DNA of 64,000 bases, from assembly GCF_016907925.1 (NCBI RefSeq), contig NZ_JAFBCZ010000005.1:186001-250000 (forward strand). The letters run 5' to 3'. The notes below the pieces were generated by a model. That model worked only from the letters and a program-made list of their open reading frames with translations. It had not been told where the DNA came from and made no database searches. The position numbers were made by a program, and so were the translations under genes. Of this stretch, positions 17,799-63,498 are shown in pieces (the stretch's first letter is position 1; each line of letters starts with the position of its first letter). The stretch is from Herpetosiphon giganteus. Its GTDB lineage: Bacteria > Chloroflexota > Chloroflexia > Chloroflexales > Herpetosiphonaceae.

Positions 17799-17810
17799 TC
17801 AATTCAGATC

Positions 17811-17839
17811 GAGCGGTAGGCGCACGTTGCTTGCCGCTC
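17811..17839 (+). promoter_or_regulatory. Intergenic stem-loop between propeller copies 1 and 2
   Basis: An 11-bp RNA stem (17811-17821 with 17829-17839). Two positions differ from the stem between copies 2 and 3, but both remain paired as G-U wobbles. It ends 11 bases before the AAGGAG of the next gene and has no T-run, so it is more likely an mRNA processing or stabilising element than a terminator. Confidence 0.75.
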
Positions 17840-17865
17840 AGCATAAACCTAAGGAGAGAATGCAG

Positions 17866-21120: not shown

Positions 21121-21127
21121 CTCCAGC

Positions 21128-21156
21128 GAGCGGCAAGCATCCGTTGCTTGCCGCTC
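21128..21156 (+). promoter_or_regulatory. Intergenic stem-loop between propeller copies 2 and 3
   Basis: A perfect 12-bp stem (21128-21139 with 21145-21156) with a 5-nt loop, followed by the same AGCATAAACCTAAGGAGAGA leader as copy 2. No T-run follows. Confidence 0.8.
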
Positions 21157-21182
21157 AGCATAAACCTAAGGAGAGAATGTCG

Positions 21183-24368: not shown

Positions 24369-24376
24369 CCAAAGCG

Positions 24377-24403
24377 AGCGGCAAGCAACAGATGCTTGCC
24401 GCT
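24377..24403 (+). promoter_or_regulatory. Intergenic stem-loop between propeller copies 3 and 4
   Basis: An 11-bp perfect stem (24377-24387 with 24393-24403) with loop ACAGA. Stem sequence is conserved with the two preceding spacers while the loop differs. AAGGAGAGA follows it. Confidence 0.78.
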
Positions 24404-24430
24404 GCGCATCCAACCAAGGAGAGAATGTCG

Positions 24431-27604: not shown

Positions 27605-27737
27605 CCGGGATCTAGCGTCAAGCACTCGCTGATGGGTGCTCATCTATTGGCCTGCGGTGAGCCGCTGATCCTGCTATGGGTGCTGAAGCAGCGAGTTTCA
27701 GCACCGGGTTAATACTTATAATCGAGAGGAGCTACTG
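27605..27737 (+). promoter_or_regulatory. Spacer and possible promoter before propeller copy 5
   Basis: This spacer differs from the others in the array. It holds a 9-bp hairpin (GGTGCTGAA paired with TTCAGCACC) and a TATAAT at 27717-27722, then GAGAGGAG as ribosome site for copy 5. A -10 this close to the ATG would give an almost leaderless mRNA, so I rate the promoter as weak. Confidence 0.35.
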
Positions 27738-44303: not shown

Positions 44304-44388
44304 GGTTAACACTCATTCCAGCAACTAAAAACGGCTTGACCAATTAAGGATACGGCGCAGTATACCATCCCTTAGTACTGTAGGCTAA

Positions 44389-45281: not shown

Positions 45282-45689
45282 TTAGTTAAAGAGCGTTATA
45301 AGTTGGGCGAGCTTTCCATCAAGTTGCTTTGCCACCCATGCAAGATCATTGGATTTATGGCGATTGAAGCTGTGCCATAAGCGTTGCAATTGGTTTGCCT
45401 GACGATCAAGCAAATCGAGTACATTGTACCAACCTTGGGAGCCATCGAGTTTAAGGTGTTGGTTGGTCAGAAACGGGGCAGTATGTCGACCAAGCGCAAC
45501 GCTGTACTCGCCATCAGAAAGCATGAGCAAGGCATTACACATGGGCGAATGGTATAAAACCAGACATTCTCTGCCACCATGCTGGGCATCGCACTGTTGG
45601 CGCACAAATTGATGGGCTTGCAAATGGCGCTGGAGACAGCGTTCCGCGTAGTTGATAAAGCCCTGACATGCTGCACAATGCGAATCCAT
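45282..45689 (-). CDS. Cys-rich putative immunity/accessory protein, paralogue B
   Basis: A 135-residue protein starting MDSHCAACQG, with GAGGA 7 bases before the ATG. It is clearly paralogous to the gene just upstream (45757-46242): both share CxxCQG at the N-terminus, an R/V-QCDAQ..G.EC block, LYHSP.C, LG...APFLT and DGSQGW.N. Four or more conserved cysteines suggest a zinc site. The frame remains open for 77 codons upstream, but that part overlaps the paralogue and has no ribosome site. Its place behind a WXG100-effector gene suggests immunity. Confidence 0.65.
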   Translation of the reverse strand: MDSHCAACQGFINYAERCLQRHLQAHQFVRQQCDAQHGGRECLVLYHSPMCNALLMLSDGEYSVALGRHTAPFLTNQHLKLDGSQGWYNVLDLLDRQANQLQRLWHSFNRHKSNDLAWVAKQLDGKLAQLITLFN

Positions 45690-45756
45690 CGATGTTCCTC
45701 TACCGAACGCTTGCTGGCCCACAACCGCTTGCTTGGTTTGCAGGCCAGCAAGCCGT

Positions 45757-46242
45757 TTATGCGCCGTAGTAGCGCTGCCGCTGCATAAATTGAATATAAT
45801 CAGCGAGCCATGTGGCTGGTGCGCCAGGCGCGAACATCGCCAACAGCTGCTCAAATTGGCCTGCGAGCAATTGGGCCAGCCATTGATGATAATCGAGGCT
45901 GCCATCCCAAAATTGTTCAATTACCCGCTGGGTCATGATTTTTTTGTTGGCTCGATACTCCAACAAATAGACCAGATTGAACCAGCCTTGCGAGCCATCA
46001 ACGTCGAGAATTTGATCGGTCAAAAATGGCGCATCAAATGTGCCTAAAGCGCAATAATCAGCGCCATCGGTGCGTTGAATCAACAGTTGGCAGCTTGGCG
46101 AATGATACAAGGCCAAGCATTCCAAGCCGTTGTTTTGGGCATCACATTGGACGCGGCGAAATTGACCAAACTCCAAATAGCTGCTCAATTGTTGCTCAAC
46201 ATAGCTGATATAGCCTTGGCACTGGCCACAATCGTTGCTCAC
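45757..46242 (-). CDS. Cys-rich putative immunity protein, paralogue A
   Basis: A 161-residue protein beginning at GTG with GAGG 6 bases upstream. It has CGQCQGYISY, then VQCDAQNNGLECLALYHSPSC, a TDGADYCALG strand and DGSQGWFNLVYLLE, the blocks shared with paralogue B, plus a C-terminal extension absent from B. It starts 10 bases after the WXG100-effector gene stop codon, the position expected of a cognate immunity gene in a polymorphic toxin locus. I do not recognise a named family. Confidence 0.68.
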   Translation of the reverse strand: MSNDCGQCQGYISYVEQQLSSYLEFGQFRRVQCDAQNNGLECLALYHSPSCQLLIQRTDGADYCALGTFDAPFLTDQILDVDGSQGWFNLVYLLEYRANKKIMTQRVIEQFWDGSLDYHQWLAQLLAGQFEQLLAMFAPGAPATWLADYIQFMQRQRYYGA

Positions 46243-46252
46243 AGAAAACCTC

Positions 46253-47521
46253 TTAATCGTTCAAGGATTGGCTGGTTTGCAAAACTTCGCCGCCTGGGCC
46301 TATGCTGCCGCCAGCCACCCGTCCGCCAGTGCTTGCGCGCCAGTCGCCAGTCTTGATCCAGCTATCGCCAATTTGGCGGTAGCCATATTGGTAGGCTTGG
46401 CTTTGCATAAAGCGCACTTCCATCGCGCTATACGATTGAGGGCGCTTGGTCAAAATATCGTCAATCGAGCTGCCCTTAATATCGATTCGGCTAATGCCGC
46501 TTTCAAGCTGCGATTGCAAGAATTCGCGGTTGACTGGCCAGATGCGATTATTGCCGCCTTCAGCAATTGGCTTGAGCGCATCCCAAACTTCGGCGGTGGT
46601 GCTGAAATAGCGTCCGCCATGCGCATTCGCTTCGCCGATATAGCCAAGGAAGCCTGACGCTGGGTCAGCTTTGAATGCCCCTAATACTACTCGATCAGTC
46701 AAGGCTGTGCCTGTGCCAACATGGCTTGATTGATTGGCAATATAGCGAGCCATGGCGGTTTCTGCGCTGCCGCCTTTGGCCAGTGCGCCAATATCGCCAG
46801 CTGCTTGGAGCGGAGTGCTGACACGGGCAATATCAGCGGCTGCATCGGTAACGGTCGCTGCTTTGCTGAGCTTAGCTGCTTTACCAACCTTATCAGCGCC
46901 TTTGGTGCCGATTAAGATCGAGCCGATAAACATCGTGCCACGGCCAATTGCTTCCCATGGGCGGCCATTCTCCCAAGCTTCGACATAGGGCGCTTTGAAT
47001 GCTTCCCAGAACTCACTTGGATGGGTTACTGCGTGCCAAATACCTTTAACCGTTTCGACTGGATTGGTGACCATATTCCAAACGCCGACCACCATATCCT
47101 TGAGTTCTTTGCCTGCGCCAACGAAGAAATCTTTGACCCCATTGCCAACGCTGCTGAAGAACCCGCCAACGCTATCGAGCCAACTACCGCCGCCCTTGCC
47201 ACCTTCAGCATTGCCGAGCAACGAGCCTTTGAATAAACCAGCAGCTTCTTCTTCGGCTTGACTAAAGATTTTTTGGATTTCGAGGGTAACTTGTTGGGCT
47301 GTTTGGAACGCGTTGATCAAGCGATTGAAGGTTGGGAAGATTTCGTCGTTGAGTTCTTTGGCAAAGGCAACGCTGGCATCGCCTTTCCAGCTGTCGTTCA
47401 ATTGTTGGCCGGTATTGCGAATTGTCGTTTGCAATTGCTCAACGTTTTGCTTGAGGCGACCGAAACGCTGAGCCACCTGTGCGGTTTGCTCATACTGTAT
47501 CTGAACAACTTCCTTGCTCAT
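46253..47521 (-). CDS. WXG100-effector fusion (polymorphic toxin candidate)
   Basis: A 422-residue protein. Residues 1-100 form a WXG100 helical hairpin with the motif Trp45-Lys-Gly47 (SWKGDAS) and end in the hinge FSQAEEEAAGLFKGSLLG. A hydrophobic/glycine pre-toxin region follows (about 112-200, with GVKDFFVGAGKELKDMV and VETVKGIWHAVTHP). A variable C-terminal domain occupies about 280-422, with RVVLGAF, GYIGEANAHGGRYF, WPVNREFLQSQ and a YGYRQIGDSWIKTGDW segment. I do not identify the C-terminal activity. AGGAG lies before the ATG. It is probably exported by the adjacent FtsK-type machine to act on competing cells. Confidence 0.8.
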   Translation of the reverse strand: MSKEVVQIQYEQTAQVAQRFGRLKQNVEQLQTTIRNTGQQLNDSWKGDASVAFAKELNDEIFPTFNRLINAFQTAQQVTLEIQKIFSQAEEEAAGLFKGSLLGNAEGGKGGGSWLDSVGGFFSSVGNGVKDFFVGAGKELKDMVVGVWNMVTNPVETVKGIWHAVTHPSEFWEAFKAPYVEAWENGRPWEAIGRGTMFIGSILIGTKGADKVGKAAKLSKAATVTDAAADIARVSTPLQAAGDIGALAKGGSAETAMARYIANQSSHVGTGTALTDRVVLGAFKADPASGFLGYIGEANAHGGRYFSTTAEVWDALKPIAEGGNNRIWPVNREFLQSQLESGISRIDIKGSSIDDILTKRPQSYSAMEVRFMQSQAYQYGYRQIGDSWIKTGDWRASTGGRVAGGSIGPGGEVLQTSQSLND

Positions 47522-48607: not shown

Positions 48608-49573
48608 TTACTTCGCTCCGCCAAACGAGATGCCAAATGAAACAAATGGCAACTTGACTTTGGTGGTTTTGCCAATGCTAAAGCCAAGCTCAGCCTTGAG
48701 GCCAACTTCGGCACTCACCCCAACATTAACCCCAGCGACGTTTACGCCTTTGCTTCCGGTAACCGAAACCAAGGTGCCACCAACGGTTGCGCCAAGTGAG
48801 CCATCTTTGATGCCAGCGAAACCTTCAACTGAAAGCGCTTTGCCTTCGAGGGTTTCGGTATAGCCTAAGTTTTTGTTGCCATAGACATTAGTTAATTCGC
48901 CTTTAGCAACGGTTGCTTCGCCGTATGGCCCAATGGTGAATTTTTTCTCGCCATTCATGCCTAAGCCAATCCCAACTTCGCCATAGCCAACTTGGTATTT
49001 GCCTTTGAGGGTATAGGGAATTGGGCCGTCGACTTTAAGTAAATCGCCTTTGCCTTCGAGCAACGCGCCACTTACCCCAAGCTTCAATTGTGGCTTGGTT
49101 TCGCCGGTTTTGGTTTTGTAATCGTAGGTATGGATTTTAACTTTGCCCTTGACGGTTGGGCCGCTGCCTTGTTTGTCGCCATTGCCGGCTTGGCCACTGC
49201 CATCACCTGCTTGGCCGCTGCCGCTGCCATTGCCGCTACCATTGCCGTTGCCGTTGCCACCGCCCATCAATGAGCCTTTGAACAACCCAGCAGCTTCTTC
49301 TTCTGCTTGTTGGAAGATTTTTTTGATTTCAACGGTTGTGCTTTGGGCTTGGTTAAACAACGTGGTCAAGCGCGTGAAGGCAGGTTGAACTTCGCCCCGA
49401 AATTCAGCGCTAAATGCCTTTTGCGCATCACCTTGCCATTCACCAGCTTCTAAGCGGGCTGCAATACTTTCAATCGATTTGAAAATAGCAGTTGTTGTAT
49501 CAGCAGCCTTGCCAAAACGGCTGGCAACCTGATCCAACACATCGTACTTCGCCTGAACGGTTTCTTGAGGCAT
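48608..49573 (-). CDS. WXG100-effector fusion with glycine-rich linker and beta-rich C-terminus
   Basis: A 321-residue protein whose ATG at 49573 has GGAG 8 bases upstream. Residues 1-100 are a WXG100 module (Trp46-Gln-Gly48, EWQGDA) that ends in the hinge FQQAEEEAAGLFKGSLMG, almost the same as in the other fusion. A GNGNGSG/GQAG linker (about 104-138) joins it to a C-terminal domain rich in alternating hydrophobic and glycine residues (VGYGEVGIGLG, GTLVSV, GVNVGVSAEVGLKAELGFSIG), suggesting a beta sheet or barrel-like domain. There is no cysteine in the C-terminal domain. Its activity is unknown. Confidence 0.78.
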   Translation of the reverse strand: MPQETVQAKYDVLDQVASRFGKAADTTTAIFKSIESIAARLEAGEWQGDAQKAFSAEFRGEVQPAFTRLTTLFNQAQSTTVEIKKIFQQAEEEAAGLFKGSLMGGGNGNGNGSGNGSGSGQAGDGSGQAGNGDKQGSGPTVKGKVKIHTYDYKTKTGETKPQLKLGVSGALLEGKGDLLKVDGPIPYTLKGKYQVGYGEVGIGLGMNGEKKFTIGPYGEATVAKGELTNVYGNKNLGYTETLEGKALSVEGFAGIKDGSLGATVGGTLVSVTGSKGVNVAGVNVGVSAEVGLKAELGFSIGKTTKVKLPFVSFGISFGGAK

Positions 49574-49878
49574 GACACAAACTCCATCGGGTATAAAAAG
49601 AACAGAAGTTTTATCATTGCTAGCAATACTAGCCAATGATTATGCTTGATGCTTAATCAGGTTAAACCTTGGTTAAGCACCTATTCTTCTCAGTTAAGAC
49701 TACAATAAAAGGCGCAGCCTTACCAAGGAAATACAATTGACTCTGCAAGCATACTCGATGGATTGCTGGTTTACAAGAGGGGCTTTTGATGGATTTTTTA
49801 ACTCATTTGCGGCCTTGAAATGCTCAAACGAGATGCAACTAGCAATAGTCGGAATATCTCGTTTGAGCTAGTTGTGGT
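49574..49878. other. Intergenic region with 13-bp inverted repeat
   Basis: There is no gene here. A 13-bp perfect inverted repeat (49822-49834 with 49856-49868, spacer 21) begins 10 bases beyond the DUF3467-like stop codon. It lacks a T-run, so it may protect the mRNA 3' end rather than terminate. The rest may hold the promoter for the 49573 unit, but I see no clear one. Confidence 0.5.
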
Positions 49879-50233: not shown

Positions 50234-50863
50234 TTAATCCGAAATAATGACTTTAAAGGTAATTTGGCTCCGATCCAGCGTGATCAAGTCGCCATGCTGT
50301 AAGACTTGGCGGCGATCAACCTGAATGGGCCGACCCGTCGAATCGGTAATCGTCGTTGGGTTTGGCGAGAGGCTTTCAATATAGAAATGACCGCCAGTTT
50401 CGGTAATTTCAAATTGCCGCCGTGAAACCCGCAACCCATTAGGGTGGCTGCCCAAATCAACTGCCAATAGATCGTTGCTTGCTTGATTGTCGAAGCGGCC
50501 AACGATTGCTGGTTGCCAGTGGAGGCGATAACTATTGCCCGTTGGATGCTCACGTAAGTAAATCCGACGTGCCATTGGCTGGCCATCTTCTGGCATATTT
50601 GGCATTGCTTCACTAAATATCAAGCGTTCTTTATTCGAAACTTGTTTATCGAGTGTGCGATTATTGCTTAAGACGCTGCCATCTTGCTTCATCAAGCAAT
50701 AGGCATCGGGATTTTGACCAAGAAAATCGAAGTCACGCCGAAATTCCTTCAAAATCGATTCAACAAGCTCTCCGGTAGGAATGTTGGTGAGTGTTTGAGC
50801 AACTTGTTGCTTCTTTTCATAGACATCGATAAAAAGTTCAAAGCGGGCTTGTTTGGCACCCAT
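50234..50863 (-). CDS. Ubiquitin-like (YukD/EsaB type) plus FHA protein
   Basis: A 209-residue cytosolic protein. Residues about 8-86 have the beta-grasp pattern of YukD/EsaB (FELFIDVYEKKQQVAQTLTNIPTGELVESIL...LMKQDGSVLSNNRTLDKQVSNKERLIF). Residues about 115-207 form an FHA phosphothreonine-binding domain with GR at 122-123, SRRQFEI at 147-153 (Gln where His is usual) and LSPNPTTI. Firmicute systems carry FHA on the ATPase and YukD as a separate gene; here the two are fused. It lies 68 bases after the ATPase gene and is presumably a regulator or docking factor. Confidence 0.78.
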   Translation of the reverse strand: MGAKQARFELFIDVYEKKQQVAQTLTNIPTGELVESILKEFRRDFDFLGQNPDAYCLMKQDGSVLSNNRTLDKQVSNKERLIFSEAMPNMPEDGQPMARRIYLREHPTGNSYRLHWQPAIVGRFDNQASNDLLAVDLGSHPNGLRVSRRQFEITETGGHFYIESLSPNPTTITDSTGRPIQVDRRQVLQHGDLITLDRSQITFKVIISD

Positions 50864-50931: not shown

Positions 50932-53900
50932 TTAGCTTTCTAAGGTTCCTTCGAAGGTCAAAATCAACGATTCATCATCGCTGCTGGTCATGTCGGCCAT
51001 CATTGTCGCGGTTTCGAGATCGAGGCCATCGTGCATATGCTGATCGACCAACATTTGGTGCAGCATCGATCGCAGGCGCTCGGAGCTATTCCAGCTTGCA
51101 AAATCCATTGAAATATAGTTTTGCATAATCGCTTCAGCAATATTGCTATCGCCGTTTGCCTCTTTGATGCGTGGCATCAAGCGTTGGATACCTTGGCGAA
51201 TCAGCGCCGACATTCGAGCAACTGTCGGGTCTTGTTCCATGCTGACTGGTTTATCGCCAATCGTAATCGCCCCACTTGACCAGGCTGCCCGTTCTGGGTA
51301 GCGTTCGCTGATGGTTTCAACCCAGCCGTCAAGGGCTGTGATGATCCGTTCGGCTTCATCGCTGGCATCTTCGGTGACAATATGGCTGCCATCGGTATAC
51401 GGGCTGGCCACTTGGATCAAGGTTGTTTGACCTGCTTTGACCATAAAGCCCCGACCCATTGGCAATTCTTTGCCCCGAACTTCGCTTGGGGTGCGCATAA
51501 CCCGTAATGATTCCACCGCTTGGGCTGTCCGTAGACCAATCCCAAAGTTGGCGCTCATAACGCGGCGGCGCAGATCATTGACCCCACCATCGAGCGTGCC
51601 TGCAATAATGACAAACACACCTTCGCCACCGTAGCGCCGAGTCAGCACTGCCATATCGTTCATCACTGAACGCTTGCTTTCTGCTTCGTCGCTGAAATCT
51701 TCAAAGTTATCGATGAAGATATAGACTGGGCGGTTAATCGCTTGCTGGGCGAATGCCTGACACTCGATTTGTAGATTTTCCAACAATGGACCCATTTGAT
51801 CGATTTCGCTGACGGTTTGCAAGACGTGCGGCAAATCAGCAAGGCTGCGTTTGCCACCATACTTGAAGAAGCGTCCGCGGGTATCAATCAAGACCATCGC
51901 CACCTGTTCAGGCGTGTAGCGATCGGCCAGCGAAAGCACCCAGTTGTAGAGCAAGGTGGTTTTACCAGAGATTGGTGGCCCAGCAATCGCTGCGTGTGGC
52001 CCAATCTTTTTGAGATCGTACATGGCTGGCATCAGGTTGTTGCTTTGGCCAACGACGCTCCAAATGACTTTGCCTTCAGCAACTTTATTGGTTTCATCGA
52101 GCATTTCGCGCAATGGCACAATTTGCGGCAGAATTTGAATTGGATCAGGTGTGGTGCGCATGCCACCAAGTTGTTCAACCTTGGCCTGCATCATCATCCC
52201 CATCAAATCAAGTTCTTCAGCTTCGTTGCGATGGTCGCGGCCATCAGGCCCAACTAAGCCCACTGGCAAGGTTGCTTGGAAGAGCAATGGCCGTTTTCCA
52301 ACCCGAATATAGCCGCGGCCCGGCACATCGCCAAATTCAATTGCGCCCCGCCCAACAATATCCATATAGCGATCTTGTTGGCCTTGCTTGAAGGTAATCC
52401 GTTCGCCAAATAAGCTGTTAAAGCGGCTTGACATATTGGTTGGGAAGTTGGCCGTAACGATAAAGGCAATCCCAACGCTCAGTGAGCGCCGAACCAATGG
52501 AATCAAGACCGATTCTTCAACCGCGTCGTAATTCTCGTGGATGATGGCAATGTTATCGATTGCAACCACAATCGCTGGCAAGGCTTGATCTGGAAACTGC
52601 TTATTGTATTCATAGATGGTGTTGACCCCTGCATCGCTGAAGATTTGTTGGCGTTCGCGGGTCAAACGTTCCATCTTGCTGAATAAACGCAGCATTTGTT
52701 CTTCAAAGGTCTCGTCGTCGGCGTAAATTAATGCTCCGACGTGCGGCAAGTTGCGCAAGCTACGGAAGTTGCGCCCACCCAAATCGACCACATAGGCGTG
52801 GAGTTCATCGGGGCTGTGGCTCGCTGCCAAACCGGCGATGATCGAGCGTAACAACGAAGTTTTGCCCCAACCAGAATCACCATAAATTGCCAAGTGATTG
52901 GTGCTGAAATCAAAGACAAATGGCAATTGGGTTGCTTCATTTGGATCATCAACCAACAAGGCTGCGGTGCGCATGGCCTCGGTTTCCCAATCGACCCCTG
53001 GCCAGAGATGTTCAGTGTCACCGTTGATCCAATCGGTTACGGCTGGCTGGAAGACAATAATGCTATTGTCTTTGGCATTGATAATCGGCGATTGCAAACT
53101 TACGCGCTCGGGTAAGAAATTTGGCCATGGTTTTGGCGTTGGTTGGAAATTGACCAACTCACGTGAAATTTGCACCACGGTATCAAACAATTTCGGTGTA
53201 TCTTCGCTGGTTGAAACTGGTTCTGGCTCACGTTCTGGCCAGAGCACAGCCACTTCGCGATCGTCGATTTGGCTTTCGCCAGTGTATGAAACCTGAATCA
53301 GTTCAAGATTTTCGTTGCCAATTTGCAAGTAGCCACGGCCTGGCATGCCGTTGGGCAAGAAGGCTGCGTCTGGTTTGCGCAAGAGTTCACGGCTGGTATC
53401 TGGCTGTTCAACCCGTAGACAGAGCCGCAACTTGATATTGGCGCGCATTTGGTCGGTAACACCCTTTGGTTGTTGCGAAGCGAGCAAGAGGTTGACCCCT
53501 TGGGCACGACCAACCCGGGTGATACTTTCCAACGATGGGAGATATTCAGGGTTCGAATCGAACATTTCGGCGTATTCGTCGATGATGATGAACAAGTGTG
53601 GGTATGCGCCAAACTCTGGTTTCTTGTGGAAGCCACGTTCGCGATATTCCACAATATCCTTCGTGCCAGTCATGGCGTTGAGTGCTTGACGGCGACGAAT
53701 TTCAGCATCAATCGAGGTGAACATACGATCAACTGCCGACTTGTTCAAGTTGGTCACGATGTCCACACAATGCGGCATGTTTTCGAATGGCTTGAAGGCA
53801 CCGCCACCTTTGAAGTCGACCAAGACAAAGTTGAGAATATCAGGCGAGTAATTCAGCGCTAGACCCACAATCAAGGTCATCAGCAATTCCGATTTACCAG

Positions 53901-56900
53901 CACCAGTACCCCCTGCAACCATCCCGTGAACACCGTCACGCTTGGCTTCGAGTTGCAGCGTGCGTGGCCGATTGCCTGAGACAATCCCCAAACATGCAGC
54001 CAACCAGCCAGCTTGTTTGCCAGTGCCTGCGTTGTATTCCCAGGTTTTGGCGGTTGCTTCTTTGAGTTCTTCGACAAATGGCCGGTCGCCACGGCCAATG
54101 TTGTGCATTTCTTGCAGCACTTGGCGATACGACGAACTCTTGGGCAAGGCGGCAATCCCCAACGGTGGTTGGTATTTGCCAGGATTATTGGCGATATGCG
54201 CATTCATATGCTTGCCGATAACCCGAATTTGGCCAGCTTCACCGCGAATTTGCAGTTTTTCGGTCACTTGTGGTTGGCCGTCAGCGCCCAAGACATCGGC
54301 TTTGCCAATCGTGCCTGGTGGTAAGGCAATGTGATAGCTCAGCGCATCGCGGCCAACTTTGACCGCACCACGCCCAGGAATTTCTTCAACTTCTAAGAGC
54401 CGTGCGCCAACAATGGCCGAATAGTCGCCTGAATCAGAAATCTTGAAGGTCAAGCGTTCGGTAAAGAGGCTATACAGCTTACTTGACAGAATATTCAAGC
54501 GGCTGGCAGTGATCAGAATATGCAAGCCATAGGCTTTCGCTTGGCGTGCCAAGGCTACAAAGACCTCAAGCAAGTTATTGGCATCATTATTCTTATCATC
54601 GCCAAAGGTTTCGATATATTCGCCGAAGTTATCGATTGCCACCAAAATTGCTGGCTTTGGATTGGCAGCGTTTTGGCTGTTGTACTCAGAAAGGGTTGAA
54701 ACCCCGGCATCGCTGAACAGTTTCTTGCGTTCATCAACAACGTTATTCAATTCACGCCAAAGCTGCTGAATGCGCTCTTCATAGCCTTGTTCGTCTGGCA
54801 GAATCACCGTCCCGACGTGCGGGATGGAGCGCAAGACTTCAAGGTTACGGCCACCAAGATCGAGCACATGGGCATTGAATTCGTTGGGCGAGTGGGTTGC
54901 TGCCAAACTCAACACCAACGAGCGAATCATGGTGGTTTTACCCCAACCAGAAGCGCCGAAAACCACTACGTGACCTTTGTTGAAGTCGAGCACCAATGGC
55001 ATTTGGCGGGCATTACCTGGATCGTCGAGCACCCCAACGACCGCGCGCATTGCCACGTGATTCCAATCGACTCCAAACCACTGACCTTTATTCTCAAACC
55101 AATCGCCAACAAAGGCATTGATTGCGATTCGTTGCGAACGGCCAAGGGTCATCAATGGTAGATAAGTTTTATCAACATACCGTGGGTTGAGCGGTTGTTC
55201 GTAGGTAATTGCATCGGGCAATGGCGCTGGCCATGGCGTTTGAGGCCGTGGTCGTGGATGGAGTAAATTTTGCGCCATCGTCACGATTAATTCATAGAAC
55301 TTGGCTTTAGTGCCGTCGGCAGCCACTGCATAATCGTATGATTCACCAGTGTACGAAACTTGAATCAGGTCAAGATTTTCGTTGCCAACTTGGAGATAAC
55401 CCCGACCAGGCATGCCGCTTGGCAAGAAGGCTGCATCCGAGCGGCGCAACATTTCGCGGCTGGTTTCAATATCTTCAACCCGCAAACAGATCCGATACTT
55501 GATGTTGGCGCGCATTTGGTCGGTAACCCCGATTGGCCGTTGTGAGGCCAGCAAGAGGTTGACCCCAATTGAACGTCCAACCCGAGTTATACTTTCCAAC
55601 TCATCGCGGAACTCAGGCGTATCGCTGATCATTTCCGCATATTCGTCGATGATGATAAATAGATGCGGGAATGGCCCCCATTGTGGGTCAAGGTGGAAGC
55701 CCTTGGCACGATATTCCACAATATCTTTGGTGCCAGTACGCGCATTCAGCGCTTGGCGACGGCCCATTTCTGCATTGATTGCCGTAAACATCCGGCGCAC
55801 GCGCGATTTATTCAAGTTGGTCACCAAATCAACGGTGTGTGGCATATCCTTGAAGGGATCAAACGCACCACCACCCTTGTAGTCGACCAAAATGAAGTTA
55901 AGGATACTGGGGTCGTAGCGCACGGCCAAACCGATGATCAAGCTCATCAGCAATTCCGATTTACCAGCACCAGTACCGCCTGCAATCATCCCGTGAACAC
56001 CATCTTTTTTGGCTTCGAGTTGCAGCGTGCGTGGCCGATTGCCCGACATCACCCCAATCGTCACTTTGAGCCAATCGGCGTTTTCTGGTTTGATGCTATT
56101 TTCCCATGCTTCGCTCATCAGGCTATTCAATTGAGGCCGTAGATCGGCATCGAAGCGAATTTCGCGCTGGAGCATGGTGGCATACATTTCGGGCAACATC
56201 GATTTGAAGAGAATCGCCTTGGGCATTGCGTCAACCCGCCGTGGCTTGAGATAGTTTTTGCCACTGGTGCGGGCATAATCAGTCATAAATTGGGCCAACT
56301 GATCGATTTCTTTCATTTCGATCGTTGGGTCAAGCGAGCCATCGCTGCTGATGCCAGCTGCGACCGCCACTTGGAAGCTGAGCGGCTGTGGGCCAACTTT
56401 GGTATAGCCACGGCCAGGAATATCATTAATATCGTCAACCCGACCGCCAACGATCGACCGATATTCGGTGTTATCGCTGAGTTTCAAGGTGTAACGCTCG
56501 GTAAATAAGCTAAAGACTTGGTTCGATAGCTCGGCCAGGCTGCCAATGGTAATGATGAAGTGAATTGCATACGGCTTGGCTTGGCGCGCAATCGAAATCA
56601 GCTTATCGAGCACGCTTTCGACGTTGCTATCTGGGCCTTCGCCAAAGGTTTCGGTAAATTCGGCAAAGTTATCGATTGCAACCAAAATTGCTGGCTGGGT
56701 ATTGGTTGGATTAACCGCATTGTATTGGTAAATATCGGCAATCCCTGCATCGTTGAGCAGCAGTTTGCGTGCATCGACAATATCGTTGATTTCGCGCAGC
56801 AATTGTTCGACCCGTTCTTCGTAGCCTTCACCGTCAGGAATAATCACCGCACCTGAGTGAGGCAATTTATCCAGCACGCTAAAGTTCCGCCCACCCAAAT

Positions 56901-59772
56901 CGAGAATATACATATGCATCTGATTTGGCGAGTGGGTTGCGGCTAAGCTCATCAGCATCGAGCGCAGGAAGGTGGTTTTACCCCAACCAGAGCCACCAAA
57001 GACGACTGCATGGCCGCGTGGGAAGTCCACGGTCAAGGGTAATTGCTTCGCTGCATAGGGATTATCGATCAAGCCAAGCACTGGCCGCATTGCATAATCA
57101 CGCCAGTTCAGATCTTCGACCCAGCCCGAAGTCCCATTGATCCATTTGTTCAAGGCAGGGTTCAAGGTCAGATCGTGCTCGCGGGGCAAGCCAACCATAA
57201 TTTCGTCGATGCCCAACAGATATTCTTCAAAAGTAACTGCATTGACATTCGGATCTTCTGAGATCAAGTGTTGGGTCAAGGCCAGTTCGCGTGGCAAGAA
57301 GTTTGGCCATGGTGCCCGTTGAATTGGCACGTTATTATCACGTGACAAAGCATCGAGCGTGCTGACGATGACCTTGTACAGTTCTGGTGGGCTTTGATCT
57401 TGGGTATCAATCCCTGGGTCAACGCCTTCAGCGCGGCGGCGATCTGGCCAAATAACTTTTTCTTGCGAAACTGAATTGGGGTCAACATAGGGATCGCCAG
57501 TGTAGGCCACTTGAATCAATTCAATTTCTTCGTTACCAACTTGCAGATAGCCCCGACCTGGAATCCCAGTTGGCAAGAAGGCTGCATCCGAGCGGCGCAA
57601 CATTTCGCGGCTTTCGCCTTGGGTCTCCACCCGCAAGCTAATCCGGAACTTGATGTTCGAACGCATTTGGTCGGTGATCCCGCTAGGCCGTTGTGCGGCG
57701 AGAATCAGCGAAACCCCGAGCGAACGCCCAATCCGCGTGATACTTTCCAACTCGCCCCGATACTCAGCCCGATCGGCGATCATTTCGGCGAATTCGTCGA
57801 TGATGATAAACAGATAGGGATAGGGATAGTGGGTATTGTGGAAGTTCTTCTTGCGATATTCAACGATATTTTTGGTATCAGTTTCGTTGTTTAAGACTTG
57901 GCGGCGTTGCATTTCCGACTTAATTGCCGTAAACATGCGGGTTACGCCATCGCCAGCCAAGTTGGTGATGATGTCAACACAGTGGGGCAGGCGTTCGAAT
58001 TCTTTGAATGCGCCACCGCCCTTGTAGTCGACCAACACAAAGTTAATCACCGAAGGATCGTAGGTAACCGCCATCACCGCAATCAGCGAGATTAGCAACT
58101 CCGATTTACCAGAACCGGTACTGCCTGCGACCATCCCGTGAACACCATCACGTTTGGATGAGAAAACCAAAGTCCGGGTTTTATTCCCCGACATGCGACC
58201 AACCTTGGCGCGCAGCCAGTTGGCATATTTAGGTTGCGTGCTGCGTTGCCAATTCTTAATCGCATCGACCTTGAGTTCATCAAGTGAGCCATAGCCCATC
58301 AGGTCGAAGAAGGCAACGCCATCGGCAAGGTTGGCCCCAGCGCTTTGGCGCAAATTGAGGGTTGATAGTTCTTCGGCCAATTTGCGCGATTCTTCGCGAT
58401 TAACAATATTATCAGCAGCCCCGATATAGCGGAAGGTGTTGACCCCCTGCTCGGCGTAGCGGAAGAATAATTGTTGATGTTGGGCTTGCTTACTGTTGGT
58501 TGCTGGCGTGGTTCGTTCAATTTCGATCACCGACTTACAGCCGCCAGGCACTTTGCTGCGTTCTGGCACGAGGAAGATCACCGCAGCGCCAAGCTGTGGG
58601 CCTTCTTCGATCAAGATTGAGAGTGCTGCATCCGATTCAATATCGCGCAACCGCTCGCCAGCTTTTTCATACATATCGAGCAGGTCAACTACCAGCAACA
58701 TAAATGGTAAGCCTGGGTTGCCACGGCCCGAATTATTATTATTTTCTTCGTTATCTTCCATGCGCATTTTGCGTTGCGATAGAATTTTACGAATGCCTTC
58801 CATGTATTGATCTAATTCATCGCCTTCTTCATCGGCATCATCAGCAACTTCTTTAATTTCGCTGACGAAACAAAGTTGCTCATATTCGCCTGGCTGACAG
58901 TGGGGCAAGGTTTCGACCCAATCCCATTCGTTATATTTTGAGGCCAAAACATACAAACGTGAATCGGACGGTGAGTGGAAAACCGCATAATGCGCCAAAA
59001 TCGAGCGAATCGATTCATAGACAGCATCCCGATCGCCTGCAATCCCCAAGGCATGGGTGGTTGGCGTAATCGGCGTTGCCTTTTCTTTCGAGCCGCCTTC
59101 GTCTTCTGGCTTGTAGCGCAAGGTGATAATAATCGGAATATCAGAGACATAGCGCGAATCGGCATCAAGCTTCATGGCTTCACGAGCGAGTGGGCTACTG
59201 AAATTGCCACCGCTCTTAACCTCGTAAACCACGGTTGATGGCAATGTGCCCATGCCAAGCCGCACCGAGCCGAAGTCATCATCAGAAACCCGTCGTTCCC
59301 AAATGCGCGCATTTGAGCGCAGGGTGCGTTCAGGCTTTTCTAAATCTTGTTTGGCATCGGTAATAACCTTGATCGTATTTGGCGTATCAGGATAGTTATA
59401 GCGATAAAAACGGCGCTGCAAATCGTGATAGCCGTGCATATCTTTATTTAATTCAACGATCTGTTCATGATATTGGCGTTCACGTTCTAAACGTTGGTTT
59501 TTCTCACGAATAAACGAATAGATTGAGAAGCCTGTGGAGGCCAACACCGATAATGCCATCGGGATGAGAATCAAAGCGCCGCCGCCGCCGCGCCCTCCAA
59601 ACATTGTTACGAAGACATAACCCACAATCATCGTCATCGGCAGAGCCAACTGAATCAGTTTCGAAATCGCATCCTCAGGATTTTCTGGCGGGGATGGGAT
59701 TTCAAACTTATTGAAAGGTAGCTCTGGTTGAATCCGTGGAGGACGATCTATCATCTGGATAGAGTTTTTCAT
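50932..59772 (-). CDS. Giant FtsK/SpoIIIE-type ATPase of the type VII-like system (EccC/EssC-like, seven ATPase modules)
   Basis: A 2,946-residue membrane ATPase. Two membrane segments lie at about 40-58 and 66-88, then a coiled region. Seven P-loop modules follow, with Walker A lysines at 556, 932, 1271, 1612, 1960, 2304 and 2604. Modules 1, 3 and 5 have G-GTGAGKSELL-type loops (GSTGSGKS in module 1) and a full Walker B (FIIIDEFAEM or FIIIDEYAEM). Modules 2, 4 and 6 have SGWGKT loops and a Walker B ending in Asp-Asn (VAIDNF or VAIDNI). Module 7 has GPPISGKTT and FIDNFEDF. Canonical EccC/EssC has three modules and 1,300-1,500 residues. There is no N-terminal FHA. GGAG lies 8 bases before the ATG. 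It is the likely motor and substrate-recognition platform for WXG100 export. Confidence 0.92.
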   Translation of the reverse strand: MKNSIQMIDRPPRIQPELPFNKFEIPSPPENPEDAISKLIQLALPMTMIVGYVFVTMFGGRGGGGALILIPMALSVLASTGFSIYSFIREKNQRLERERQYHEQIVELNKDMHGYHDLQRRFYRYNYPDTPNTIKVITDAKQDLEKPERTLRSNARIWERRVSDDDFGSVRLGMGTLPSTVVYEVKSGGNFSSPLAREAMKLDADSRYVSDIPIIITLRYKPEDEGGSKEKATPITPTTHALGIAGDRDAVYESIRSILAHYAVFHSPSDSRLYVLASKYNEWDWVETLPHCQPGEYEQLCFVSEIKEVADDADEEGDELDQYMEGIRKILSQRKMRMEDNEENNNNSGRGNPGLPFMLLVVDLLDMYEKAGERLRDIESDAALSILIEEGPQLGAAVIFLVPERSKVPGGCKSVIEIERTTPATNSKQAQHQQLFFRYAEQGVNTFRYIGAADNIVNREESRKLAEELSTLNLRQSAGANLADGVAFFDLMGYGSLDELKVDAIKNWQRSTQPKYANWLRAKVGRMSGNKTRTLVFSSKRDGVHGMVAGSTGSGKSELLISLIAVMAVTYDPSVINFVLVDYKGGGAFKEFERLPHCVDIITNLAGDGVTRMFTAIKSEMQRRQVLNNETDTKNIVEYRKKNFHNTHYPYPYLFIIIDEFAEMIADRAEYRGELESITRIGRSLGVSLILAAQRPSGITDQMRSNIKFRISLRVETQGESREMLRRSDAAFLPTGIPGRGYLQVGNEEIELIQVAYTGDPYVDPNSVSQEKVIWPDRRRAEGVDPGIDTQDQSPPELYKVIVSTLDALSRDNNVPIQRAPWPNFLPRELALTQHLISEDPNVNAVTFEEYLLGIDEIMVGLPREHDLTLNPALNKWINGTSGWVEDLNWRDYAMRPVLGLIDNPYAAKQLPLTVDFPRGHAVVFGGSGWGKTTFLRSMLMSLAATHSPNQMHMYILDLGGRNFSVLDKLPHSGAVIIPDGEGYEERVEQLLREINDIVDARKLLLNDAGIADIYQYNAVNPTNTQPAILVAIDNFAEFTETFGEGPDSNVESVLDKLISIARQAKPYAIHFIITIGSLAELSNQVFSLFTERYTLKLSDNTEYRSIVGGRVDDINDIPGRGYTKVGPQPLSFQVAVAAGISSDGSLDPTIEMKEIDQLAQFMTDYARTSGKNYLKPRRVDAMPKAILFKSMLPEMYATMLQREIRFDADLRPQLNSLMSEAWENSIKPENADWLKVTIGVMSGNRPRTLQLEAKKDGVHGMIAGGTGAGKSELLMSLIIGLAVRYDPSILNFILVDYKGGGAFDPFKDMPHTVDLVTNLNKSRVRRMFTAINAEMGRRQALNARTGTKDIVEYRAKGFHLDPQWGPFPHLFIIIDEYAEMISDTPEFRDELESITRVGRSIGVNLLLASQRPIGVTDQMRANIKYRICLRVEDIETSREMLRRSDAAFLPSGMPGRGYLQVGNENLDLIQVSYTGESYDYAVAADGTKAKFYELIVTMAQNLLHPRPRPQTPWPAPLPDAITYEQPLNPRYVDKTYLPLMTLGRSQRIAINAFVGDWFENKGQWFGVDWNHVAMRAVVGVLDDPGNARQMPLVLDFNKGHVVVFGASGWGKTTMIRSLVLSLAATHSPNEFNAHVLDLGGRNLEVLRSIPHVGTVILPDEQGYEERIQQLWRELNNVVDERKKLFSDAGVSTLSEYNSQNAANPKPAILVAIDNFGEYIETFGDDKNNDANNLLEVFVALARQAKAYGLHILITASRLNILSSKLYSLFTERLTFKISDSGDYSAIVGARLLEVEEIPGRGAVKVGRDALSYHIALPPGTIGKADVLGADGQPQVTEKLQIRGEAGQIRVIGKHMNAHIANNPGKYQPPLGIAALPKSSSYRQVLQEMHNIGRGDRPFVEELKEATAKTWEYNAGTGKQAGWLAACLGIVSGNRPRTLQLEAKRDGVHGMVAGGTGAGKSELLMTLIVGLALNYSPDILNFVLVDFKGGGAFKPFENMPHCVDIVTNLNKSAVDRMFTSIDAEIRRRQALNAMTGTKDIVEYRERGFHKKPEFGAYPHLFIIIDEYAEMFDSNPEYLPSLESITRVGRAQGVNLLLASQQPKGVTDQMRANIKLRLCLRVEQPDTSRELLRKPDAAFLPNGMPGRGYLQIGNENLELIQVSYTGESQIDDREVAVLWPEREPEPVSTSEDTPKLFDTVVQISRELVNFQPTPKPWPNFLPERVSLQSPIINAKDNSIIVFQPAVTDWINGDTEHLWPGVDWETEAMRTAALLVDDPNEATQLPFVFDFSTNHLAIYGDSGWGKTSLLRSIIAGLAASHSPDELHAYVVDLGGRNFRSLRNLPHVGALIYADDETFEEQMLRLFSKMERLTRERQQIFSDAGVNTIYEYNKQFPDQALPAIVVAIDNIAIIHENYDAVEESVLIPLVRRSLSVGIAFIVTANFPTNMSSRFNSLFGERITFKQGQQDRYMDIVGRGAIEFGDVPGRGYIRVGKRPLLFQATLPVGLVGPDGRDHRNEAEELDLMGMMMQAKVEQLGGMRTTPDPIQILPQIVPLREMLDETNKVAEGKVIWSVVGQSNNLMPAMYDLKKIGPHAAIAGPPISGKTTLLYNWVLSLADRYTPEQVAMVLIDTRGRFFKYGGKRSLADLPHVLQTVSEIDQMGPLLENLQIECQAFAQQAINRPVYIFIDNFEDFSDEAESKRSVMNDMAVLTRRYGGEGVFVIIAGTLDGGVNDLRRRVMSANFGIGLRTAQAVESLRVMRTPSEVRGKELPMGRGFMVKAGQTTLIQVASPYTDGSHIVTEDASDEAERIITALDGWVETISERYPERAAWSSGAITIGDKPVSMEQDPTVARMSALIRQGIQRLMPRIKEANGDSNIAEAIMQNYISMDFASWNSSERLRSMLHQMLVDQHMHDGLDLETATMMADMTSSDDESLILTFEGTLES

Positions 59773-60042: not shown

Positions 60043-61146
60043 ATGAAACAGGTATGTCTGTTATGTGAACGAACATCGTTTGATAATAATTTGTATTGTC
60101 AAGAAGTTTATTGTCAAGCTGAAAAATCGCCAACAATTCTTGGATATGGAAAATGGCTGGGCGATATTGAAATCGTGCGGCCCGTTGTTGTACTACGCTC
60201 TTCAGTTTTATACGAAGCCAGCCATCAAAAAGAGCGCGTATTTCTTAAAGTAGCCCACGTTGGCAGCGAAAATACTGAACGCTTAAAACGTGAAGCCGAA
60301 TTTCTAAAAACTATTCGGGTTTCGAACGAACGCAATACGTTCTTGCCAAATTGGCGGCCACCCTATGCCAATGCCACCGTAAGTGCCCAGACTGAGGCCT
60401 ACGGGCGGGCGATGCTCGGCGAACACCTTTTTTACTATTACTTGTCAGATTTCTTTGCTGGCGAATCGTTGCGCGACGCGCTGACCAAAAATCCGCAAAT
60501 GTGGGTCAACCATATTGGTTGGTTGGTCATGCGTTTGTCATCATCAATTGCGCTCTTGCAAAGCAAAGGTGTGTTGCATTTCGGGATCAACCCCGAATCG
60601 CTGTTGGTGCATTTTGAAGATAATCCTTCAGTGCCAACCATTCACTTGCTCGATTTGGGTATTGCCAGCACGCCGCAAAATATCAACAACGATTGGTATT
60701 CGTTTATGGTTCCGCCAGCCTATACTGCACCAGAAATTATGCAGCCGCACCTGCAAAAACCAAGCTATGCAACCGATGTCTATGGCCTCGGCTTGATTTT
60801 GTATGAAATGCTGGTTGGCGTTCCGGCCTATCCCTTCAAGCTCAAAAGCGACGAAGAGGTCTATCAGGCAGTCTTGAAAAACCATCATGTTAATATGAAC
60901 CGAACTGCTGACGTGCGGGCAATTGCTGAGCTGGCAGTGCGCATGGTCGATGTTCAAGTTGCGAATCGGCCTCAAAACGCAGCTCAAGTCGTCCAGGAAT
61001 TACTTAAGCTGTTTGGTGAAGTTCCAACTGCCAAAAAGAGCCGCTGGCCCAGCCTCAACACGATCCTGATTATTGTGATTAGTTTATTGACCGTCGCCTT
61101 TTTGATTACCTTCTTTGTAACCTTGAACCAGTTGAATATTATTTAG
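60043..61146 (+). CDS. Zinc-ribbon pseudokinase with C-terminal membrane anchor (EssB/YukC-like candidate)
   Basis: A 367-residue protein in order: an N-terminal Cys set (Cys5, Cys8, Cys19, Cys24) resembling a zinc ribbon, a protein kinase fold (about 40-325), and one membrane segment (about 340-360) with a 7-residue tail. The kinase keeps the ATP-lysine candidate Lys69, Glu84, the DFG-position Asp204 (DLG) and APE (229-231). The catalytic loop, however, reads H-F-G-I-N-P-E-S-L-L (179-188), so the catalytic Asp, the following Lys and the metal-binding Asn are all replaced. EssB/YukC of Firmicute type VII systems is also a membrane-bound pseudokinase, which supports the parallel. It is divergent from the giant ATPase. 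Confidence 0.82.
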   Translation: MKQVCLLCERTSFDNNLYCQEVYCQAEKSPTILGYGKWLGDIEIVRPVVVLRSSVLYEASHQKERVFLKVAHVGSENTERLKREAEFLKTIRVSNERNTFLPNWRPPYANATVSAQTEAYGRAMLGEHLFYYYLSDFFAGESLRDALTKNPQMWVNHIGWLVMRLSSSIALLQSKGVLHFGINPESLLVHFEDNPSVPTIHLLDLGIASTPQNINNDWYSFMVPPAYTAPEIMQPHLQKPSYATDVYGLGLILYEMLVGVPAYPFKLKSDEEVYQAVLKNHHVNMNRTADVRAIAELAVRMVDVQVANRPQNAAQVVQELLKLFGEVPTAKKSRWPSLNTILIIVISLLTVAFLITFFVTLNQLNII

Positions 61147-61290: not shown

Positions 61291-61593
61291 CTAGCCGAAG
61301 CGGCCTGATGCCGAGAAGTCTTGGTTTTGGAAGTTCTTAATAGCGGTATTGACATCTTGAGTGATTTCAACACATTTTTCAGCCATCTTTTCGATTTGTG
61401 GACGGAACTGATCGATGTAGTTTGCTACAGCTGCGCCACCAACCAAACCGATGAATGCAGTTGCTTTAAGGGTGGTTGAAAGGACTTCCAAGACTTTAGC
61501 AACGGTTTTCAAAACTTGCCCAACCGTATTGATAGTCTTAGCGATTTTGGCGACATCGCCAACCTGCATATAAATTTCTGATGCTTGTGCCAT
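61291..61593 (-). CDS. Small helical protein of the WXG100 operon
   Basis: A 100-residue protein that is almost entirely helical, with a hydrophobic stretch in the middle (about 44-59: AFIGLVGGAAVANYI) flanked by amphipathic helices. It has no W-x-G. AAGGAG lies 8 bases before the ATG. As the last gene of a four-gene leftward unit it is probably a secreted partner or a small membrane-associated component. No family is recognised. Confidence 0.75.
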   Translation of the reverse strand: MAQASEIYMQVGDVAKIAKTINTVGQVLKTVAKVLEVLSTTLKATAFIGLVGGAAVANYIDQFRPQIEKMAEKCVEITQDVNTAIKNFQNQDFSASGRFG

Positions 61594-61638: not shown

Positions 61639-61968
61639 CTAGTAGAACTTAGCAATGCTGCGCAATTTTGAGTTAACCAAGTTGCGAGCGGTGCTATCAG
61701 CGCGGTCGATCAAATCGCGAGCTTTGCCCAAGTTGCTGTGGTAGCTGGTGATGCCAGTCCCGATGCGGGTAACTTGGGGGGTCATCAAGTTGGTCAATTC
61801 TTCGCGGAACTGATCAGCACCTACACCACGCCATACTTGTGGTGATGATGCAATGATTTGCTTGATTGGAGCCAAAGCTTGTTCTTGAATGACATTGAAT
61901 TGTTGCATCAATTGTTGCAAAACGCTTTCCAAAACTTTGCGAGCCAAGCGCATCAAGAAACTTTTCAT
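61639..61968 (-). CDS. WXG100-like protein with basic N-terminal helix
   Basis: A 109-residue helical protein with the turn motif Trp46-Arg-Gly48 (VWRGVGADQF) between two long helices, which fits a WXG100 hairpin. Its first helix is basic and hydrophobic (MKSFLMRLARKVLESVL), which is unusual for the family. GAGGAG lies 7 bases before the ATG at 61968. It probably forms heterodimers with a neighbour and is exported by the adjacent ATPase. Confidence 0.75.
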   Translation of the reverse strand: MKSFLMRLARKVLESVLQQLMQQFNVIQEQALAPIKQIIASSPQVWRGVGADQFREELTNLMTPQVTRIGTGITSYHSNLGKARDLIDRADSTARNLVNSKLRSIAKFY

Positions 61969-62009
61969 GGATAAACTCCTCAATTAGGTATACAAAGAGC
62001 CAATTACGA

Positions 62010-62300
62010 TTAGAAGCTGCTTTTCGCGCTGCCGTCTGCTGCATCCATTGCGGCCATAGCGTTCTTGATGTCGCCTTGGATTTCGGTCATCTTGGCAGCT
62101 AATTTAGCCAATGATGGAGCCATCATGCCGGTCAAAACATCAACGAATTCGCTACCAGCGTCGCCTTTGAGGGCTTCGTCGATGGTGCTCGCAATTGACA
62201 AAACTTCTTGGGTTACATCTTGAACTTGTTCGTGCGCTTTGCCAAAGGTTGCTTGAGCTTGTTCCATAGCCGCACGATTATACTTCATTTTCTCTGCCAT
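62010..62300 (-). CDS. WXG100-like protein (degenerate motif)
   Basis: A 96-residue, Met/Ala-rich helical hairpin protein. The turn reads Leu44-Lys-Gly46 (ALKGDAGSEF), that is, the Trp of W-x-G is Leu, while the following GDAGSEFVDVL matches the family. AAGGAGG lies 8 bases before the ATG. It sits between two other members of the family in one operon, so it may form a mixed dimer. Confidence 0.78.
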   Translation of the reverse strand: MAEKMKYNRAAMEQAQATFGKAHEQVQDVTQEVLSIASTIDEALKGDAGSEFVDVLTGMMAPSLAKLAAKMTEIQGDIKNAMAAMDAADGSAKSSF

Positions 62301-62331: not shown

Positions 62332-62640
62332 TTAGATTTTCCAAGCTTTGAAGATTGCCGCAGCTTCATCTTCATGTTGTTGGAAGGTTTGCTTGATTTC
62401 GTTGCTGGTTGATTGGAAGGTGTTGAAAGCTTGAATCAAGCGATTGAAGGCTGGGGTCATTTCGCCTTGCCATTCTGCTTGATACTTAGCTGCTGCATCC
62501 CCGACCCAATCTTGTTGCATTTTTTGGGCAAGTTGGTTGAGGGTTTGGAACAATTGTTGTACGTTTTGCTCGAGCTTGCCGAAGCGTTGCGCAACTTGTG
62601 CCATCACTTCTTTGTCGATTTGTACTGTTTCTGCTGCCAT
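62332..62640 (-). CDS. WXG100 family protein (EsxA-like)
   Basis: A 102-residue protein with a canonical Trp45-Val-Gly47 turn (DWVGDAA) between two helices. It is strikingly similar to the N-terminal modules of the two effector fusions (MAQVAQRFGKLEQNVQQL; F.RLIQAF....EIKQTFQQHEDEAAAIF). AAGGAGG lies 9 bases before the ATG at 62640. It is the first gene of the four-gene unit and probably the general secreted substrate or partner of the machine. Confidence 0.9.
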   Translation of the reverse strand: MAAETVQIDKEVMAQVAQRFGKLEQNVQQLFQTLNQLAQKMQQDWVGDAAAKYQAEWQGEMTPAFNRLIQAFNTFQSTSNEIKQTFQQHEDEAAAIFKAWKI

Positions 62641-63498
62641 TGAAGAAATCCTCCTTGTGTGTTCGGAGCCAAATTGGCTGCACTGTGGCACACAACCGTA
62701 GTGCTTGCTGGTTATATCAATCTGACGAAAGTAGTTAGCCGAAGCTTTCCTTTTAGGTTTGAGTGATATGACGAGCGACCGAGATTGCTAATAGTTGAAT
62801 TGTCCTTGGCTGCCAAACGTTATTTGTGTTCCGCAAGAGCTTGCTTCTAACACCACCAGCCCAACACTACCGCTTTTGTATAAAAAGACCAAATAGGGGT
62901 TTATCGATTGTTATTGCCACCAAAGCGATAGGTTGTTACAAAAACTGGCCTAATGAGCGAAATTCGCATCCGTCGAGAAACGAGTTTGTTCAATTAGTGG
63001 TTTTTGCGCTTACTGAATGTGCCTGCTTTAACCAAATACATTCTCTCACCCCATGTATTTAGCTATTGCAACGTTGTAATGCTATTTGCTTCACATAAAC
63101 ATCGATTGCCAATTGCGGTTAATTCGTACTCAGAGTGTACAAAACCAAATTGCACTTGTCAAGAGCTTTTTTTGGGGTTTTTCCCACCAATATCGCAATT
63201 GGTTAGGAGTCTTGTACTATCCCTCGTCTATTAAGCGTGCTCGGTTGTTAATCAAATCGCCTCAGCGACCCTTGAGAATGGTCTTGGCTCAGTTTTATTC
63301 TGTCATTTCAATGTATTCGGCTCTCTGAGCTACCCTGCTAGCTAGCTAATGGCCTACCCTGAGTACTAGGACTTGCGGAATTAAGCGGCAATTTGCTTGA
63401 TTATCGGCTACTTTGCAACTCAATTTTGAACTTGATTAACCAGATTTAGCGCGTTGGAATCAGGCAATCAGCTGGTTTGGTTAAGTAACGAGGCTTGA
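62641..63498. other. Long intergenic region
   Basis: About 860 bases with no convincing gene on either strand; the short open frames lack ribosome sites and protein-like composition. It must contain the promoter of the WXG100 operon, but I could not pick a clear -35/-10 pair. It is AT-rich, with a poly-T tract near 63,165-63,185. Confidence 0.5.

Follow-up and report, generated by a model that had tools for sequence, protein, structure and literature searches.

The window analysed here, a 64,000-nucleotide stretch of the genome of the filamentous bacterium Herpetosiphon giganteus (assembly GCF_016907925.1, contig NZ_JAFBCZ010000005.1, positions 186,001 to 250,000), encodes an ATPase of 2,946 residues that we call the long EccC. 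It is near certain that this protein is a type VII secretion system (T7SS) ATPase of the EccC/EssC family, and within that family it is a variant, not a canonical member, with eight ATPase-like folds and three D1 modules in one chain. A literature search, with most subscription journals outside its scope, found no published description of the long EccC or of a Herpetosiphon T7SS.

Modules of the long EccC

The long EccC is read from an ATG without an internal stop. A prediction made earlier from the sequence alone (the original prediction) had described one uninterrupted frame with seven P-loop modules of EccC/EssC type, and on these points our analysis agrees with it. The seven Walker A lysines were recovered at exactly the same positions, residues 556, 932, 1271, 1612, 1960, 2304 and 2604. 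The protein scores above the cut-offs of the EssC, EccCa and EccCb models (TIGR03928, 1527 bits; TIGR03924, 1015; TIGR03925, 799), with residues 2266-2789 matching EccCb (TIGR03925), and its best match in the PDB is the EccC of Thermomonospora curvata (E 8e-77). The Pfam FtsK_SpoIIIE profile matched seven stretches (E 7e-159), not three, and a genome-wide search with this profile returned the same seven, each above the curated cut-off. The gene and its parts are as follows.

50932..59772, minus strand: long EccC/EssC-family ATPase, 2,946 residues
59503..59676, minus strand: two predicted transmembrane helices, residues 33-58 and about 66-90 (hydropathy, AlphaFold2 (AF2) helices, 6umm_E alignment)
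58348..59280, minus strand: DUF/D0, degenerate ATPase fold, residues about 165-475 (AF2 model; phmmer to T. curvata EccC)
57460..58320, minus strand: D1.1, residues 485-771, Walker A GSTGSGKS, Walker B FIIIDE
56332..57186, minus strand: D2.1, residues 863-1147, Walker A GGSGWGKT, Walker B AIDN
55315..56163, minus strand: D1.2, residues 1204-1486, Walker A GGTGAGKS, Walker B FIIIDE
54292..55143, minus strand: D2.2, residues 1544-1827, Walker A GASGWGKT, Walker B AIDN
53245..54102, minus strand: D1.3, residues 1891-2176, Walker A GGTGAGKS, Walker B FIIIDE
52234..53073, minus strand: D2.3, residues 2234-2513, Walker A GDSGWGKT, Walker B AIDN
51316..52170, minus strand: D3, residues 2535-2819, Walker A GPPISGKT, Walker B FIDN
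50935..51315, minus strand: C-terminal tail after D3, about 127 residues

The module order is D1-D2-D1-D2-D1-D2-D3. In pairwise comparisons modules 1, 3 and 5 share 55-63% identity with one another and modules 2, 4 and 6 share 40-44%, while the D1 and D2 types are about 25% identical. Module 7 has about 24-28% identity to every other module and is about equally far from all of them. This pattern of similarity is far above chance, and the self-alignment for which the original prediction had called yields two alternating module types and a separate module 7.

The N-terminal block was modelled separately. An AF2 model of residues 1-500, built from 17 sequences (predicted local distance difference test, pLDDT, 75), matches EccC3 of ESX-3 (6umm_E) with Z 25 over 314 residues, and its D0 matches the crystal structure of the EccC5 DUF (8rin_A) with Z 20.2. 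The model also matches the membrane, stalk and DUF parts of ESX-5 EccC5 and of B. subtilis YukB. Judged from these models, the transmembrane pair, the stalk and the ATPase-like DUF/D0 of EccC are all present in the long EccC. The DUF of EccC is a degenerate ATPase (PMC11154593), and EccC and EssC are counted with four ATPase domains (reviewed in PMC10765036). The three ATPase modules that the original prediction ascribed to known type VII ATPases should thus be four, DUF/D0 included, and because D0 is also present in the long EccC the fair comparison is of eight folds with four.

A DNA translocase of the FtsK, HerA or conjugation type would share the FtsK fold of these modules, and we regard a role in moving DNA rather than secreting protein as very improbable. 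The EccC/EssC models score far better, the protein has the membrane-stalk-DUF block specific to EccC, the neighbouring genes encode WXG100, FHA, ubiquitin-like (UbL) and pseudokinase proteins, and a separate FtsK-like frame of 844 residues lies elsewhere in the genome.

The motifs of the modules were aligned in 12 distinct full-length homologues of the long EccC. The Walker A Lys and the Walker B Asp-Glu are retained in all D1s (36/36), and the arginine-finger stretch in nearly all of them. The D2s and D3s mostly have Asp-Asn at Walker B and never Asp-Glu; most D2s have an Arg at the position aligned to the D1 arginine-finger stretch. In T. curvata EccC it is D1 that is the active ATPase, and the Walker motifs of D2 and D3 are degenerate in EccC and EssC, including those of M. 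tuberculosis and S. aureus (PMC11154593). Since all D1s keep their Walker motifs and D2 and D3 lack the Glu, we predict three hydrolysing modules per chain, against one in canonical EccC. This count of catalytic modules, three versus one, is more telling than the total number of modules.

Distribution and history of the repeated modules

Our survey took in 82 genomes from the order and 400 from the phylum Chloroflexota, most of them drafts. The long frame with three D1s is present in all six Herpetosiphon genomes, the complete genome of H. aurantiacus DSM 785 included, and nine more genomes of the order have it complete. Four others in the order carry fragments of it, on short contigs or split over contigs. 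The original prediction had proposed such a survey of module number, and the long form was found to recur, always with three D1s when complete. Neither a complete frame with two, four or more D1s nor a complete five-module intermediate was found in the 82 and 400 genomes; in G024, G427, G410 and G008 there are fewer D1s per frame, and the contigs are short and end inside or near the gene. Other Chloroflexota, and some of the genomes that encode the long EccC, have canonical frames of about 1,309-1,581 residues with one D1; the H. giganteus genome has no other EccC-type D1. The linkers between modules are near-constant in length across lineages, and the tail after D3 has 109-139 residues in all long forms, versus 13-29 in four canonical Chloroflexota EccCs. 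A scan of viral contigs with the D1 alignment gave no relative, and the best 30 matches among plasmid records were only to EccC/EssC of canonical size, with spans of about 1.7-2.6 kb versus about 5 kb for the long form.

Outside the order the long EccC is present in one genome, G060, and the D1.1 of this genome nests beside the D1.1 of G020 and G426 (97/97). Transfer is a possible explanation, as is contamination of the bin, which is listed at 5%.

Drafts make up most of the genome set, and long near-repeats are often misassembled, so it might be asked if the repeated modules were falsely joined in one frame by the assembly or the gene model. We give this practically no credence. From stop to stop the frame measures 2,956-2,958 residues in six independent Herpetosiphon assemblies, among them that of the complete H. 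aurantiacus, and the repeat units share just 68-70% DNA identity. An assembly artefact, the outcome that the original prediction had named as fatal to it, is excluded by these independent genomes: the long EccC is an old and conserved form. At the third positions of conserved residues the copies are 58-65% identical, versus a background of 52%. This is near synonymous saturation, which indicates that the copies are old.

In a phylogenetic analysis of the D1 modules, all D1s of the long form make up one group (100/100), apart from the canonical D1s, and within it copies 2 and 3 cluster together (99/100) with copy 1 apart. For the D2 modules it is copies 1 and 2 that cluster together (92/95, G250 aside), with copy 3 apart; alternative D2 topologies are about 11 log units worse and are not rejected by the approximately unbiased (AU) test (p 0.16). 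Because the D1 and D2 trees set D1.1 and D2.3 apart, they favour a five-module ancestor, D1-[D2-D1]-D2-D3, in which the inner [D2-D1] unit was doubled. The long form probably arose before the order diversified, through two internal tandem duplications of which the second was of a [D2-D1] unit. It is also possible that position-specific constraint on the outer modules has caused the same tree pattern. The original prediction of a two-module repeat with a terminal module stands, but its proposal that a [D1-D2] unit was repeated three times is less well supported by the trees, which favour [D2-D1] as the last unit to be duplicated. In two proteins, L082 of G426 and L076 of G060, D1.2 and D1.3 are closer to each other than to their positional counterparts. 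This suggests gene conversion within the gene between D1.2 and D1.3 in these two genomes.

Candidate substrates and the proposed working of the motor

The H. giganteus genome has 18 WXG100 domains; the majority stand at the head of frames 337-472 residues long, which are spread over many contigs. Two of the longer proteins with such a head lie in the window and are candidate substrates of the long EccC, identified in Pfam and NCBIfam scans.

48608..49636, minus strand: WXG100-headed protein, 342 residues, candidate substrate
46253..47521, minus strand: WXG100-headed protein, 422 residues, candidate substrate

Among ten WXG100-headed frames that we scanned, the tails include a VgrG3-like C-terminal/chitosanase domain, calpain (two), glutaminase, a PGAP1-like hydrolase and DUF6973, and lipase-like tails are among them. 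In genome G000 such enzymes are scattered on contigs C1, C5, C7, C8, C11, C20, C21 and C24 (L096-L106), and C11 has four consecutive ones at 89.7-98.6 kb. The pairing of WXG100 and calpain domains in H. aurantiacus has been noted earlier (PMC4631099), and these are WXG100-headed enzymes of the same kind as those found here; the passages of that report that concern them deal with the domain pairing only, and the motor lies outside those passages.

Among the matches listed, 13 of the 16 genomes of the order that have the long EccC also have WXG100-headed frames of at least 300 residues, as against 0 of the 13 that lack it and have a listed WXG100 match (Fisher p 1e-5). Counted by genus, they occur in 6/8 with the long EccC versus 0/9 without (p 0.002), and two genera, g7 and g229, hold both states, with the association in the same direction. 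The enzymes that co-occur with the long EccC have 340-530 residues. They are the sole functional correlate that we found, and they fit a motor for long substrates.

On balance we lean towards the long EccC being a stacked multi-ring export motor with three active D1 rings. Six chains would assemble round a pore, as is thought for canonical EccC, with D0 at the membrane and with D3 at the far end, where it would take up the signal of the WXG100-headed substrates. The three D1 rings would hydrolyse ATP in series, separated by three D2 rings that would bind but not split it, and would hand the substrate along a cytosolic channel of roughly doubled length. The taller hexamer suggested in the original prediction is plausible. 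Three hydrolysing rings in series could give more grip or processivity on long substrates, such as the WXG100-headed enzymes. The hexamer, the stacking, the direction of passage, the triple hydrolysis and the benefit for long substrates are all elements that we infer. D1 is the active module of EccC, and the part beyond D0 is flexible in solved complexes.

Stacking of the modules is suggested by structure prediction. An AF2 model of D1.2-D2.2-D1.3 (991 residues, pLDDT 81, predicted template modelling score (pTM) 0.64) can be superposed on D1-D2-D3 of T. curvata EccC (4nh0), with 813 of 861 residues aligned, Z 32.5 and a root mean square deviation (rmsd) of 7.6. A D1 can thus follow a D2 at the place that D3 has in canonical EccC. 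As the fit between domains is loose, the model supports a serial string of modules and does not prove stacked rings.

Each chain has exactly six D1 and D2 modules, strictly alternating and invariant in number in complete members, and with the Arg that most D2s have at the arginine-finger place this raises the possibility that a single chain forms a covalent pseudo-hexameric ring. Three D1-D2 pairs would close the ring, with D3 and the membrane part hanging off it, and catalytic and non-catalytic modules would alternate as in F1-ATPase or dynein. If true, this would be a single-chain, dynein-like secretion motor with its firing order fixed in the polypeptide. We consider it improbable: the D0 of known EccCs is in a sixfold pore complex, which needs six chains (PMC11154593), the linkers resemble canonical ones, and in the AF2 model D1.2, D2.2 and D1.3 follow one another as the modules of T. 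curvata EccC do, with moderate confidence.

Transport might also be driven by the membrane-proximal D1.1 only. The extra D1-D2 pairs would then serve as scaffold or regulatory rings gated by nucleotide, making the entry chamber longer and offering further docking places for substrates or for FHA and pseudokinase partners. Canonical EccC has one clearly active module and the others have been proposed to be regulatory (PMC11154593), and D1.1 is the outgroup of the other D1s, as would be expected if it has kept the old role. We take this reading seriously and think it unlikely, since the catalytic Glu is intact in D1.2 and D1.3 of every homologue, in the same chains whose D2s and D3s lack it, and the arginine-finger stretch is kept in all but a few drifted D1 copies. 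Selection preserves the hydrolysis motifs at all three places.

Several points weigh against the stacked motor. The arginine-finger stretch of G250 D1.2 has drifted (MRANMSLKVALHVD), which suggests that not every D1 copy need be active everywhere, and the model of D1.2-D2.2-D1.3 has only moderate inter-domain confidence (pTM and rmsd as above). The association with WXG100-headed frames is confounded by shared ancestry, which weakens the p values; three genomes with the long EccC have no such frame among the matches listed, and the counts rest on those matches, the last of which have weak E-values. Export, hexamer formation and hydrolysis by D1.2 and D1.3 are predictions.

The long EccC is a natural variant with which to ask how EccC/EssC motors use ATP. 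With three apparently active D1s in one conserved chain, the roles of D1 and D2 could be tested by knocking out the modules one at a time. Our results also suggest that a so far undescribed type VII system exists in Chloroflexota, along with a large repertoire of WXG100-headed enzymes that may have a role in predation or competition.

Gene neighbourhood and likeness to known systems

Neighbouring genes were compared in 13 loci with the long EccC. WXG100 proteins are found nearby in 12 of the 13, and the neighbours in the window are as follows.

60043..61146, plus strand: pseudokinase with an N-terminal Cys cluster and a C-terminal transmembrane helix; adjoins the long EccC in 12/13 loci
50234..50863, minus strand: FHA protein with a putatively YukD-like ubiquitin-like N-terminus (UbL-FHA); directly downstream in 13/13 loci
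41952..44312, minus strand: VWA protein with an FHA domain and a hydrophobic stretch between them, 786 residues; near the long EccC in 7/13 loci
62332..62691, minus strand: short WXG100 protein, 119 residues (Pfam and NCBIfam scans)
62010..62300, minus strand: short WXG100-like protein, 96 residues (41.7 bits, just under the TIGR03930 cut-off)
61639..61983, minus strand: small protein of the WXG100 cluster, 114 residues (BLAST clustering with the WXG100 set; no Pfam match)
61291..61593, minus strand: small protein of the WXG100 cluster, 100 residues (clustering with the WXG100 set; no NCBIfam match)

In all the pseudokinase partners the HRD Asp and the following Asn are gone, while the Cys cluster is conserved with the pattern CxxC...C...C. 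Of 11 UbL-FHA proteins, 6 are matched by the YukD model with E values no higher than 1 (best 8e-4); the match to the protein in the window lies below the Pfam cut-off. A sequence-based structure search with the UbL-FHA protein returned FHA domains only. The EssB/YukC model PF10140 had no match in the H. giganteus genome, with a positive control in B. subtilis. The EccB model TIGR03919 had none either, but gave none in the control genomes, and EccD, EccE and mycosin were not recognised among the neighbours in Pfam and NCBIfam scans, no genome-wide search for them having been made. The membrane-anchored pseudokinase may stand in for EssB. PADLOC gave matches to SspH, Mad8 and HerA, and to PD-T4-6 in the case of the kinase, which we put down to FtsK and kinase folds held in common.

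The long EccC resembles the EccC of T7SSa/ESX (T. curvata 4nh0, mycobacterial EccC3 and EccC5) in its two transmembrane helices, stalk and D0/DUF, in having a catalytic D1 followed by degenerate D2 and D3 in the same order, and in its WXG100 partners. It differs in two extra D1-D2 pairs, in three catalytic modules and in a tail of about 125 residues, and its cluster has pseudokinase, UbL-FHA and VWA-FHA genes, whereas no EccB, EccD or EccE was recognised in it. The EssC/YukB of T7SSb, found in Bacillota, has the same D0-D1-D2-D3 layout and gives the best NCBIfam model, TIGR03928; FHA (the FHA domains of EssC) and pseudokinase (EssB) functions occur there too, as does a YukD-like UbL function (EsaB), which the UbL-FHA protein here may share. 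Unlike in T7SSb, the FHA domain here is on the separate UbL-FHA protein and not at the N-terminus of EssC, the pseudokinase is unrecognised by the YukC model, and there are eight folds rather than four. The T7SSc-T7SSj variants likewise combine EssC and WXG100 proteins, often with FHA, phosphatase and ubiquitin-like genes; they have been described in Bacillota and Actinomycetota only, with the ATPase called canonical and Chloroflexota unmentioned (PMC11217815). In a canonical-length Chloroflexota EccC, L085 of G101, a ubiquitin-like (YukD-like) stretch was seen by eye at the N-terminus, fused ahead of the membrane part.

Two tandem paralogous small proteins, of 161 and about 145-212 residues, adjoin a WXG100-headed protein at 45282-46242 on the minus strand. 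The first has no Pfam match, and the pair are candidate immunity proteins. Farther off, the plus strand at 15147-29855 encodes large proteins next to one another that have Rax2-like propellers and, in four frames, bacterial Ig/cadherin-like repeats; the frames 15147-17798 and 17665-21120 overlap by 134 bases.
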